Positions 15,538-23,344 of a stretch of DNA of 30,283 nucleotides are shown here, one piece after another. The notes under the pieces are model-generated. The model saw nothing but the letters and a program-made list of their open reading frames with translations. It was not told the origin of the DNA and searched no databases. The stretch comes from a virus. The stretch is taken from positions 1-30,283 of the IMG/VR virus record IMGVR_UViG_3300025626_000088; one strand, given 5' to 3'. The position numbers and the translations under genes are program-made. Position 1 is the stretch's first letter. Every line of letters starts with the position of its first letter.

Positions 15538-15708
15538 ATGAAGAAAGAAAAGATACTACAAGTAGTCAATTTAGCACCAAGTGAGTCTTGGATAGAGAAG
15601 TTGACTGAAATCCACCCTATGCGTCAAATCGCATATGCTACTATAGTACAAGCAGTCGTATTCTTTGGTATGTTGGGAGCATTTAAATTGATAGGTTCTG
15701 TTGTATGA
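15538..15708 (+). CDS. Small single-pass membrane protein (56 residues)
   Basis: ATG at 15538, stop at 15706-15708. The N-terminal half is charged (MKKEKILQVVNLAPSESW). Residues about 31-54 form a hydrophobic segment (IAYATIVQAVVFFGMLGAF) that should span the membrane once. The stop overlaps the next start in an ATGA junction, supporting translation. AAGGA-type signals are absent upstream. I recognise no family. Inner-membrane location is predicted; the role is unknown. Confidence 0.6.
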   Translation: MKKEKILQVVNLAPSESWIEKLTEIHPMRQIAYATIVQAVVFFGMLGAFKLIGSVV

Positions 15709-16127
15709 AAGTAGGATTCACATGTTCGGCATTTGATCTGTTACACGCAGGTCATATATCAATGCTTAGAGAAGCAAAGGATCAGTGTGACTACCTTATA
15801 TGTGGTCTACAGGTAGATCCAAGTATAGACCGACCTAACAAAAACAAACCCATTCAAACAATCTTCGAACGATACTCTCAGTTGAATGCTGTGAAGTATG
15901 TTGACGAAATCATTCCCTACGTTACAGAGCAAGATCTGGAAGACATCTTATCCGCACTACAACTTGATGTGCGTATCATAGGTGCCGAATATAAGTCGGG
16001 TACATTCACAGGACGTGCCATATGTGCAAGTCGAGGTATAGAGATATACTTTAATAAGAGGGATCATAGATTTTCTACGTCTGATTTGAGAGAAAGAGTC
16101 TGTAATCACTTGACAAGTGCAGACTGA
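15705..16127 (+). CDS. Cytidylyltransferase-like nucleotidyltransferase (TagD/RfaE type)
   Basis: A 140-residue protein, the size of glycerol-3-phosphate cytidylyltransferases. It has the HxGH nucleotide-binding signature (HAGH at 14-17, in FDLLHAGHISML), an ICGLQVDPS strand, and the late STSDLRER motif (124-131), equivalent to the ISTTxI/SSSxLR motif of the family. Such enzymes join CTP or ATP to a phosphate-bearing small molecule, making an activated head group or sugar. The substrate cannot be read from sequence. It may support modification of surface polymers together with the glycosyltransferase and sulfotransferase in this window. It overlaps the membrane protein by four bases. Confidence 0.8.
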   Translation: MKVGFTCSAFDLLHAGHISMLREAKDQCDYLICGLQVDPSIDRPNKNKPIQTIFERYSQLNAVKYVDEIIPYVTEQDLEDILSALQLDVRIIGAEYKSGTFTGRAICASRGIEIYFNKRDHRFSTSDLRERVCNHLTSAD

Positions 16128-20248: not shown

Positions 20249-20277
20249 TTGACATGTCGATTCCTTTGTGTTACAAT
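20249..20277 (+). promoter_or_regulatory. Sigma70-type early promoter for the gp45-panD transcript
   Basis: TTGACA (20249-20254), 17-bp spacer, TACAAT (20272-20277), four bases after gp46. The start near 20284 leaves a 28-base leader before gp45. It should also transcribe the 74-residue gene and panD. Confidence 0.88.
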
Positions 20278-20311
20278 GACCGTATATTAACTAAAACTAG
20301 AGAGATTTATT

Positions 20312-20995
20312 ATGGAATTATCTGATCGTACTCTTGGAGTACTAAAAAACTTTGCAAACATTAATAGTAATATTGTGTTCCGTGAAGGCAACGAACTGAA
20401 GACCATCTCAATGGCAAAGAACATCCTTGCGAAAGCATCACTGGATGAGTCTATACCCAATGAGTTTGGTATTTATGACTTACATGAATTTTTGAACATC
20501 ATGGGATTGGTAGACAACCCATCTCTGAAGTTCGAAGACAAGCACGTGGTGATCTCTGATTCCACGGGTTTACGTGGTAATAAGTACTTCTTCTCTGACA
20601 TCGATATGTTATCGTCCCCTACAAAGGATGTTATCATGCCAGAACCAGAAGTGCAGTTTACCTTAGATACTGATACACTAAGTAGATTGAAACGTGCAAG
20701 TGCAGTCCTTGGTCATGATCTTATTTCGATTACCCCAAACGGTAAGAGTGGTGGATCTGTCAAGTTAACTGTAATTGACAAAGACGATGCAACGTCTAAT
20801 AGTTTCTTCACTTTTGTAGAAGGAGTTTATGATGAAGGAGTTGATTTCAACTTTGTAATAAACGTTAACAACCTAAAGATAGTCAATGAAGACTTCATGG
20901 TGGGGGTATCTTCTAAGAGGATCTCACACTTTGCAAGTAAGCAATCGTCTATTGAATATTTTATCGCACTTGAAGCATCAACTTATGGAGAATAA
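20312..20995 (+). CDS. 45: Sliding clamp, DNA polymerase processivity factor (gp45-like)
   Basis: A 227-residue product, essentially the length of T4 gp45 (228). The N-terminus TLGVLKNFANINSNIVFREGN matches the T4 pattern (LLKNFATINSGILLNEGQ). The middle contains DLHEFLNIMGLVDNPSL, typical of the family. Three copies form the ring around DNA that tethers gp43 and also activates late transcription with gp55. It is encoded just after gp46 and behind its own early promoter. Confidence 0.96.
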   Translation: MELSDRTLGVLKNFANINSNIVFREGNELKTISMAKNILAKASLDESIPNEFGIYDLHEFLNIMGLVDNPSLKFEDKHVVISDSTGLRGNKYFFSDIDMLSSPTKDVIMPEPEVQFTLDTDTLSRLKRASAVLGHDLISITPNGKSGGSVKLTVIDKDDATSNSFFTFVEGVYDEGVDFNFVINVNNLKIVNEDFMVGVSSKRISHFASKQSSIEYFIALEASTYGE

Positions 20996-20996
20996 C

Positions 20997-21221
20997 ATGG
21001 CAAAACAAGAAGCAAAAACAGAAGCACCACAGGTAGACGAACGTCTGGCAGTGTTGCAGGATCTCGCAAACCGTGTAGCACGTTCTACTGTAGCAGTAAT
21101 TGATACAGTTGTACAACGTGGTGGTTTTAAAGGAGAAGAACTTTCTACTATTGGGCAGTTGCGTGACCAATCTATCGAGTGTATTCAACTCGTGGAGCAG
21201 TTACAAAACGATCAGCAATAG
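20997..21221 (+). CDS. Hypothetical 74-residue helical protein between gp45 and panD
   Basis: ATG at 20997 follows the gp45 stop by one base and has GGAG at 20988-20991. The same frame is open further upstream, but that part lies inside gp45 and lacks a good start. The product begins MAKQEAKTEAPQVDERLAVL and is predicted to be almost all helix, with Gln- and Glu-rich ends. It has no transmembrane segment or recognisable motif. In T4 gp45 is followed directly by gp44, so this gene and panD are insertions at the clamp-clamp loader junction. Confidence 0.7.
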   Translation: MAKQEAKTEAPQVDERLAVLQDLANRVARSTVAVIDTVVQRGGFKGEELSTIGQLRDQSIECIQLVEQLQNDQQ

Positions 21222-21223
21222 TT

Positions 21224-21598
21224 GTGAGTAAGCAATTTCTGACAGGAAAATTGCACGGGGTTTCCGTAACCCGAACTGAGTTAGATTATGATGGTAGCAT
21301 TGCTATTGATATTGGTCTACTAAAAGCGGCAGGTATAAAAGAGTATGAACATATTTTTGTATACAATGTCACTAACGGTGAACGGTGGGAAACCTATGCC
21401 ATTCTCGCAGAAGAAGATTCTGGCATCATCTCCGTCAATGGAGCAGGTGCAAGAAAGGCAGAGGTAGGTGATAACCTCATCATCTGTGTATATGAAAATA
21501 TACCAGACGATTGGGTAGTAATGCCTAAACTGGTGTATGTAACAGCAGATAATACTATCTGTCGTATTGGTAACACAATACCTACACAAACACATTGA
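21224..21598 (+). CDS. panD: Aspartate 1-decarboxylase PanD
   Basis: A pyruvoyl enzyme that turns L-aspartate into beta-alanine, a precursor of pantothenate and coenzyme A. Starting at GTG 21224 the product has 124 residues and needs no gap against my recollection of E. coli PanD (126 residues) over the first 70. Lys9 (in GKLH), Tyr22, the self-cleavage pair Gly24-Ser25, Arg54, Thr57, Tyr58 and Asn72 (in ISVNGA) are all in register. An upstream GTG at 21179 would add 15 residues inside the previous gene and is less likely. There is no clear ribosome-binding site. It lies on the gp45 transcript, and its TGA stop is inside the -35 box of the gp44 promoter. All visible catalytic residues are intact. 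Confidence 0.93.
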   Translation: MSKQFLTGKLHGVSVTRTELDYDGSIAIDIGLLKAAGIKEYEHIFVYNVTNGERWETYAILAEEDSGIISVNGAGARKAEVGDNLIICVYENIPDDWVVMPKLVYVTADNTICRIGNTIPTQTH

Positions 21599-21623
21599 CA
21601 AAACGTTTCTTATGCTGTACAAT
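21595..21623 (+). promoter_or_regulatory. Sigma70-type early promoter for gp44
   Basis: TTGACA (21595-21600) contains the panD stop codon. A 17-bp spacer and TACAAT (21618-21623) follow. The start near 21630 leaves a leader of about 32 bases with GGAG before the gp44 ATG. Confidence 0.88.
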
Positions 21624-21661
21624 GTATAGTATAAGAAACACTTTTTAATTATGGAGTATCT

Positions 21662-22600
21662 ATGCGAGATGAATTTCTCTGGGTCGAAAAGTATCGTCCC
21701 CAAAAAATATCCGAGACTATCCTACCCGATAATCTCAAGAACACATTTCAAGCAGTAGTTGACGGTAAAGAGTTACCGAACATGCTACTCTCTGGTACCG
21801 CAGGTACTGGTAAAACTACAATCGCACGTGCCATGTGCGAACAACTGGGTCTTGACTATATAGTCATCAACGGTTCTGAAGAGGGTAACATTGATACTCT
21901 CCGTGGCAAGATCAAACAGTTTGCTTCGTCCGTCTCCCTCTCTGGCGGTTATAAGGTCGTAATCCTTGACGAAGCAGACTACCTTAATCCCCAATCAACT
22001 CAACCCGCACTGCGTGGTTTCATCGAAGAGTTCAGTAAGAACTGTCGGTTTATTCTGACATGTAACTTCAAGAACAAAGTGATCGAACCCCTACACTCTC
22101 GTTGTTCTAATTACGAGTTTAACTTCTCTAAGAAAGTTATGGCAGGATTGTGTGGACAGTTCATGACCCGTGCGGATGAGATACTGAAGGGTGAGGGTGT
22201 CGAGTATAATAAAGATACTCTTGCACAGTTGATTATGAAACATGCTCCCGACTGGAGACGTGTACTTAATGAGTTGCAACGTCATTCTATTGGTGGTACA
22301 TTGAATCTTAGATGTATCATAAGTGATATAAATGATAACTATAGTGCCCTTTTCCGATCATTAAAGATCAAAGATTTTAAGAAGATGCGTGGATGGGTAG
22401 TAGAGAATATGGACATGGAACCCGCATCAATATTTCGTGGCATCTATGATGGCATGTATGAATACGTGGCACCCGCCAGTATTCCCCAACTTGTGTTGAT
22501 TCTCGCAGACTATCAATACAAAAATGCGTTCGTGGCAGATCACGAACTTAACTTAGTTGCCTGTATGACTGAGATCATGGCAAACGTGGAGATTAAATAA
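21662..22600 (+). CDS. 44: Clamp loader large subunit (gp44-like AAA+ ATPase)
   Basis: A 312-residue AAA+ protein (T4 gp44: 319) that opens and loads the gp45 clamp with gp62. The N-terminus FLWVEKYRPQKISETILP is typical. Walker A is SGTAGTGKTT (44-53), Walker B VVILDEADYL (99-108), sensor 1 FILTCNFKNK, and the arginine-finger SRC motif follows in PLHSRCSNYEF. It has its own early promoter and shares one base with mazG. The partner gp62 is not adjacent but lies 1.4 kb downstream, after three accessory genes. Confidence 0.97.
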   Translation: MRDEFLWVEKYRPQKISETILPDNLKNTFQAVVDGKELPNMLLSGTAGTGKTTIARAMCEQLGLDYIVINGSEEGNIDTLRGKIKQFASSVSLSGGYKVVILDEADYLNPQSTQPALRGFIEEFSKNCRFILTCNFKNKVIEPLHSRCSNYEFNFSKKVMAGLCGQFMTRADEILKGEGVEYNKDTLAQLIMKHAPDWRRVLNELQRHSIGGTLNLRCIISDINDNYSALFRSLKIKDFKKMRGWVVENMDMEPASIFRGIYDGMYEYVAPASIPQLVLILADYQYKNAFVADHELNLVACMTEIMANVEIK

Positions 22601-22923
22601 TGAGACAGACAGATATGTTTCCATCATCTGCTTTAGAAGAACTGATTAGTAAGGTTGAGCAATGGCACCAAGATCGTAACTTGATAGAGGGTGCTACTGA
22701 TAAAGATCAAGTATGTAAGTTGATCCAAGAAGTCGGTGAGTTATCTGATAACGTATGTAAAGAACGTGACGTGGCAGATGATATAGGTGACATCATGGTG
22801 GTGTTAATTAACATTGCTAAACGTAATGGGTTACCTCTGGCACATTGCCTCGCAGTTGCCTATGCTGATATTAAAGATCGTAAAGGAAAAATGGTAGATG
22901 GTATTTTCATTAAAGAGGAATAA
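22600..22923 (+). CDS. mazG: MazG-like nucleotide pyrophosphohydrolase
   Basis: A 107-residue all-helical protein of the MazG family, which hydrolyses nucleoside triphosphates to monophosphates. The metal-binding helix QEVGELSD (Glu44, Glu47) and the second cluster VADDIGDIMVVLINIAKRNG (Asp61, Asp64) give the four acidic ligands. The canonical second motif is ExxD, here DxxD. Phage MazG proteins have been proposed to adjust (p)ppGpp or recycle nucleotides of degraded host DNA. The substrate is not determined by sequence. It overlaps gp44 and the next gene, pointing to one operon. Confidence 0.85.
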   Translation: MRQTDMFPSSALEELISKVEQWHQDRNLIEGATDKDQVCKLIQEVGELSDNVCKERDVADDIGDIMVVLINIAKRNGLPLAHCLAVAYADIKDRKGKMVDGIFIKEE

Positions 22924-23344
22924 ACCTACCAAATGGGATTTCGCACACATGAGAACGGCAATGAACTATGCCTATCTTTCTCATGCCCAAAGACTCAAGG
23001 TTGGTTGTGTCATTGTAAAAGACCATAGGATTATATCTATTGGTTACAATGGACAACCCGCAGGTTGGGACAACAAGTGCGAACATTTTGATGAGAAGAA
23101 AAATGATCTGGTAACATATGATACAGTAATTCATGCTGAATCTAATGCAATCACAAAGGTTGCAATGTCCTCGGAATCATGCTATAATGCTACCATATAT
23201 ACTACTACAGCACCCTGTTTAGATTGTGCTAAACTAATCTATCAGAGTGGTATAAGTAAAGTATATTATAAAACTAAACATTTGAGATGCGATGATGGTA
23301 TCGTATTTCTACAAAAATCTGGTATAAATGTGATACAATTATGA
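22898..23344 (+). CDS. dCMP deaminase-like cytidine/deoxycytidylate deaminase
   Basis: A 148-residue zinc deaminase of the dCMP deaminase (ComEB) type. The zinc and proton-shuttle motif HAESNAI (His79, Glu81) and the PCLDC motif (Cys107, Cys110) are intact. An N-terminal WDFAHMRTAMNYAYLSHAQRLKVGCVIV is characteristic. It would make dUMP from dCMP for thymidylate synthesis. The ATG at 22898 overlaps mazG by 26 bases and follows AAGGA. No other in-frame start precedes the conserved WDF segment. It is shorter than T4 Cd (193 residues), nearer bacterial lengths. The last codons overlap the following sulfotransferase gene. Confidence 0.88.
   Translation: MVFSLKRNKPTKWDFAHMRTAMNYAYLSHAQRLKVGCVIVKDHRIISIGYNGQPAGWDNKCEHFDEKKNDLVTYDTVIHAESNAITKVAMSSESCYNATIYTTTAPCLDCAKLIYQSGISKVYYKTKHLRCDDGIVFLQKSGINVIQL

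Follow-up and report, generated by a model that had tools for sequence, protein, structure and literature searches.

The gene panD lies at positions 21224-21598, on the forward strand, of the 30,283-base stretch of DNA analysed here and referred to as the window. It starts with GTG and encodes, in an uninterrupted reading frame, an aspartate 1-decarboxylase proenzyme of 124 residues. The window is the IMG/VR virus record IMGVR_UViG_3300025626_000088 and covers part of the genome of an uncultured, T4-like marine phage. Its T4-like core genes, including the large terminase, genes of the portal and capsid region, an SbcC-like gp46, gp45, gp44, a dCMP deaminase and the gp43 DNA polymerase, all run in one direction. 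The closest sequenced phage is C48C1 (OQ984149, Kyanoviridae), with protein identities of 76% for gp44, 71% for the DNA polymerase and 69% for the major capsid protein. C48C1 also has the same order of gp45, an ORF, a slot of additional genes and gp44, but it lacks PanD, and a tRNA-Thr and hypothetical ORFs occupy the slot. Host prediction through the tRNA-Arg(tct) of the window gave weak partial matches only (229 Gammaproteobacteria, 240 Alphaproteobacteria). Elsewhere in the window, at 15705-16127, is encoded a cytidylyltransferase-like protein of 140 residues, whose top PHROG is heptose-1-phosphate adenylyltransferase and which scores well under the curated equivalog cut-offs.

All features of the locus are on the forward strand. 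A promoter-like site TTGACA-17-TACAAT (20249-20277), recognised by consensus match only, precedes the gene for a gp45-like sliding clamp (20312-20995; Pfam gp45-slide_C, 1.2e-14; phrog_223, 1.7e-63), and is the likely start of a transcript comprising gp45, orf74 and panD, with gp45 as its first gene. The second gene, orf74 (20997-21221), encodes 74 residues with only a weak PHROG match, to a family of unknown function, and is conserved after gp45 in relatives with and without PanD. The start of panD falls 2 nt past the orf74 stop, and translational coupling of the two genes is likely. A second TTGACA-17-TACAAT site (21595-21623), again a consensus match, overlaps the panD stop and is the likely gp44 promoter. 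It is overlapped in turn by an imperfect inverted repeat, GTTTCTTAT...ATAAGAAAC, with a T-rich tail (21605-21639), which surrounds the -10 element of this promoter and is possibly terminator-like or operator-like. Further downstream are the gp44-like clamp loader large subunit (21662-22600; phrog_168, 1.9e-112), forming the right flank of the slot, a MazG-like nucleotide pyrophosphohydrolase (22600-22923; phrog_1992, 1.1e-38) and a dCMP deaminase-like protein (22898-23344; Pfam, 1e-24; phrog_174, 3.1e-52). A previous sequence-only reading had placed panD between gp45 and gp44 on an early transcript. The position is correct, with the amendment that orf74 separates panD from gp45, and a consensus promoter does precede gp45, the word "early" deriving entirely from that match.

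In the region as a whole, 28 promoter-like sites were observed against 29.6 in shuffles. Since this count is at shuffle level, the case for the promoters rests on near-perfect sites right before genes and on their conservation. No promoter-like site was found directly before panD. In relatives with an empty slot, the same promoter and inverted repeat sit directly after orf74, and therefore panD was put between orf74 and the gp44 promoter. Most simply, the gp45 unit would end with panD, which is probably co-transcribed with gp45, and we infer the time of panD expression from this arrangement of the sequence.

The profile search proposed in the sequence-only reading gave a significant match to Pfam Asp_decarbox (123.8 bits against a cut-off of 25, E 4e-36). 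Together with a score of 119.9 bits for the NCBIfam panD equivalog TIGR00223, whose cut-off is 106, and with the intact frame, this establishes the complete PanD that had been recognised there. E. coli PanD (1ppy) matches with an E-value of 3.9e-28, and PHROGs v4 holds no family matching the phage protein. The alignment with the E. coli enzyme, described as gap-free through residue 70, extends without gaps up to about residue 94. Moreover, the residues listed as retained (Lys9, Tyr22, Gly24-Ser25, Arg54, Thr57, Tyr58 and Asn72) are all present, as are His11 and Gly73. Of these, Arg54 touches the beta-carboxylate of the substrate (PMC3975893), and Gly24 (21293-21295) and Ser25 (21296-21298) form the predicted self-cleavage site. 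Overall, the two proteins are 48% identical. The AlphaFold model of the phage protein (pLDDT 95.9, pTM 0.89) has the double-psi beta-barrel fold of PanD and superposes on the E. coli structures 4cs0 and 4crz with 1.0-1.2 Å rmsd and a TM score of 0.95. The catalytic residues are complete in every phage PanD of the slot group and of the nrdB group described below, and dN/dS values across related phages (0.09-0.26, mean 0.18) denote purifying selection. Because of the kept residues, the predicted fold and the dN/dS values, the phage PanD is very likely an active enzyme, which agrees with the earlier description of an "apparently active" PanD encoded with the sliding clamp; both self-cleavage and decarboxylation are predicted on these grounds. 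Identical or near-identical copies of panD occur in independent IMG/VR contigs, and the gene is thus not an assembly artefact.

Comparison with relatives adds what the first reading could not see: the site is a slot with changing cargo, and some relatives carry PanD elsewhere. Among 63 relatives with gp45 and gp44 both visible, the slot is empty in 25 and holds PanD in 7, two of which also carry peroxiredoxin there. As most close relatives have no PanD in the slot, panD is non-essential. Other fillings are peroxiredoxin with tRNA-Arg and tRNA-Gly, alternative oxidase with tRNA-Thr, MetK with tRNA-Thr, 2OG-Fe oxygenase with peroxiredoxin, and tRNAs alone; in the loci L123-L202 such contents substitute for one another, or nothing is present. 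In L155 (1945-2193) and in similar slot ORFs, a predicted protein of 78-85 residues is found with tRNA-Thr, often accompanying alternative oxidase, and has only a sub-threshold DUF3021 match.

At the same place, panD is found in 11 related contigs, and the alleles at this position are divergent. Phage core genes enclose it in several contigs of independent origin, as expected for an auxiliary metabolic gene. In particular, in two relatives, L125 and L126, the whole of orf74, most of gp45 and a large part of gp44 match the DNA of the window with 97-100% identity, and across window positions 20300-22600 the flanks mostly have 91-100% identity, whereas their panD is only 39-65% identical, with the borders at the gene ends. 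The sharp drop over panD implies that a distant allele, present in four contigs, has taken its place. For one relative, identity to the window falls to 53% over PanD, between flanks of 97-100%. The sharp borders at the gene ends suggest that these phages exchange the PanD function as a unit.

In a sister group of phages, PanD lies instead between nrdB and a SegE-like endonuclease, and the gp45-gp44 slot contains peroxiredoxin. The T4-like contig G024 (149 kb) has nothing in the slot and encodes a more distant PanD before PhoH. A PanD tree of 126 columns, with weak deeper branches, unites the slot groups with the nrdB group in a single phage clade (support 97/86) nested among PanDs of gammaproteobacterial type. 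It places the G024 protein outside this clade, and the AU test does not reject a union of this protein with the other phage PanDs (p-AU 0.16). Among the bacterial proteins found, those of Gammaproteobacteria (369 genomes sampled) reach 60-61% identity to the phage PanD, and those of Alphaproteobacteria (385 genomes) 51-53%. The phage clade is old. The phylogeny suggested in the sequence-only reading as a means to find the donor and a possible host has yielded a type, gammaproteobacterial, but neither a donor species nor a host, as the nearest PanDs do not name the latter. A peptide-pattern scan of contigs was skewed towards Bacteroidota and was left out of donor inference. Some records attributed to phages were also discarded. 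The PanD of Acinetobacter "phage" MD-2021a (CAKLQH020000007.1, CAKLQF020000011.1; L015) lies on a bacterial chromosome, with the host genes lolB, rplY, pth and ribB around panD, and several unannotated PanD sequences filed under phages of Listeria, Staphylococcus, Enterococcus and Escherichia look like host DNA and were excluded.

Cultured phages with an annotated panD or aspartate decarboxylase are Achromobacter phage 2-1 (OQ974181), in which panD directly precedes the DNA polymerase gene and position 54 is His, and Rhodococcus/Gordonia phage Jace (NC_047974). Their PanDs are only 29-37% identical to that of the window, and they are unrelated phages with PanDs of other clades. A separate phage PanD-like family (L013, L035-L042, L275-L288), on contigs of up to 281 kb, likewise has His in place of Arg54, is characterized by the motifs HWETYVI and LNGPPARLF, and may act on a different substrate. 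No description of PanD from a T4-like phage came up in a search of an open-access literature library. Pantothenate and CoA genes have been reported as a pathway class in Sargassum-associated and biofilm viruses, with PanD unnamed in the sections that treat this class (PMC11295528). Like the auxiliary metabolic genes known from marine T4-like phages, panD encodes a host-type enzyme and occupies a slot of variable content, which also takes up tRNAs, beside the core genes of replication; it differs from them in belonging to the beta-alanine/pantothenate branch. In other words, the protein of the window is a normal PanD that is new as cargo of a T4-like phage group, and the slot, the allele exchange and the second site are more interesting than the enzyme. 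The committed beta-alanine step of vitamin B5 and CoA synthesis is thereby added to the cargo functions of marine T4-like phages, and a cargo slot is located between gp45 and gp44, whose content alternates between PanD, peroxiredoxin, alternative oxidase, MetK and tRNAs.

Beta-alanine, which PanD produces from aspartate, is incorporated into vitamin B5 and coenzyme A. The class I enzyme of E. coli depends on PanZ/PanM for maturation; PanZ together with acetyl-CoA also inhibits it, and the C-terminal tail KAIPVQVA of the enzyme is needed for PanZ binding (PMC4410942). Variation at the C-terminus has been proposed as a predictor of PanM dependence (PMC4537548). The window PanD differs in ending with NTIPTQTH, without the class I motif, and in having Asp in place of Glu23. 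Its tail resembles the RIGNxIPVQAA of the closest PanDs found in Gammaproteobacteria, and in the nrdB group of phages PanD has no C-terminal tail. Because the tail lacks the PanZ-binding motif, the phage enzyme is predicted to cleave itself without PanZ and is probably free of CoA feedback. In fold, catalytic residues, Gly-Ser site and length it resembles bacterial class II (PanM-independent) PanDs, a class to which it is provisionally assigned from the tail only; unlike these, it is encoded by a phage, in the replication region, and forms a phage clade of its own with divergent alleles.

With moderate confidence, we favor the view that panD is a functional decarboxylase gene of the auxiliary metabolic type, carried in the cargo slot and sustaining host pantothenate and CoA synthesis during replication. 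Specifically, panD would be transcribed with gp45 and its product would cut itself at Gly24-Ser25, generating the pyruvoyl cofactor. The mature enzyme would then decarboxylate host aspartate to beta-alanine, which host PanC would join with pantoate to give pantothenate, and CoA and phosphopantetheine would be raised or sustained during phage replication. Devoid of a PanZ-binding tail, the phage enzyme would mature without PanZ/PanM and would not be subject to the acetyl-CoA feedback that acts on E. coli PanD. A search of phage records, many of them fragments, detected neither PanB nor an acyl carrier protein (PP-binding), nor any PanC scoring above cut-off, and a complete phage pantothenate pathway of PanB, PanC and PanD is thus missing. 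Therefore, the beta-alanine must enter a host pathway, and any effect on CoA depends on host PanB and PanC, as the phages carry neither. Most likely, the phage-made beta-alanine feeds host pantothenate and CoA synthesis, and a boost of CoA by this route is plausible. CoA synthesis is in all organisms also controlled at pantothenate kinase (PMC4410942), and this control remains and could blunt any CoA gain. As far as can be read from sequence, for the activity as well as for the link to CoA, the phage PanD probably helps to keep the infected cell supplied. If confirmed, this would mean that the supply of CoA or beta-alanine limits infection.

The phages tested yielded no further gene of the CoA pathway or of CoA use (PanB, PanC, PP-binding), which speaks against the CoA explanation, and other roles have to be weighed. 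The host could lack panD and obtain beta-alanine from uracil, in which case the phage enzyme, by using aspartate, would spare pyrimidines for phage DNA. A panD gene was detected in just 60 of the 385 Alphaproteobacteria sampled (16%), in agreement with a published survey that found ADC in 17% of Alphaproteobacteria and with Rhizobium etli deriving beta-alanine from uracil degradation (PMC7142369). Furthermore, PanD is linked to genes of nucleotide metabolism, namely dCMP deaminase and MazG in the window and nrdB in the sister group. The nearest PanDs, however, are gammaproteobacterial, and 240 of 369 Gammaproteobacteria genomes contain panD; the linkage, for its part, may only mark where T4-like phages tolerate insertions. 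We thus regard pyrimidine sparing as unlikely, and somewhat more so its specific form, in which a PanD free of PanZ/acetyl-CoA control uncouples beta-alanine from pyrimidine breakdown in a panD-less host, CoA synthesis continuing from aspartate. If true, it would explain why panD lies beside gp44/gp45, dCMP deaminase and MazG, and beside nrdB in the sister group.

Use of beta-alanine outside CoA, as an osmolyte or ligated to a glycan, a nucleotide or a small molecule, seems decidedly doubtful for the window. In unrelated viral contigs PanD adjoins an ATP-grasp ligase (L033, 3762-5390) or a PP-loop ATP pyrophosphatase-like protein (L037, 4126-5363), and in those phages beta-alanine may be ligated to something; but they represent other phage lineages and other PanD clades, and neither an ATP-grasp nor a PP-loop gene adjoins panD in the window and its slot relatives. 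The variability of the slot, empty in so many relatives, could also mean that panD is a recently captured host gene useless to the phage. The dN/dS values already disfavor such chance cargo, as do the full catalytic conservation across divergent alleles and the long presence of panD at two sites in one phage clade, and we consider it very improbable. An equally slim chance is given to the decarboxylation of another substrate, or to a drain of aspartate, in place of beta-alanine supply. Nothing direct favors it apart from the His found for Arg54 in the separate phage family, whereas the window PanD retains Arg54 and all other active-site residues and passes the equivalog cut-off.
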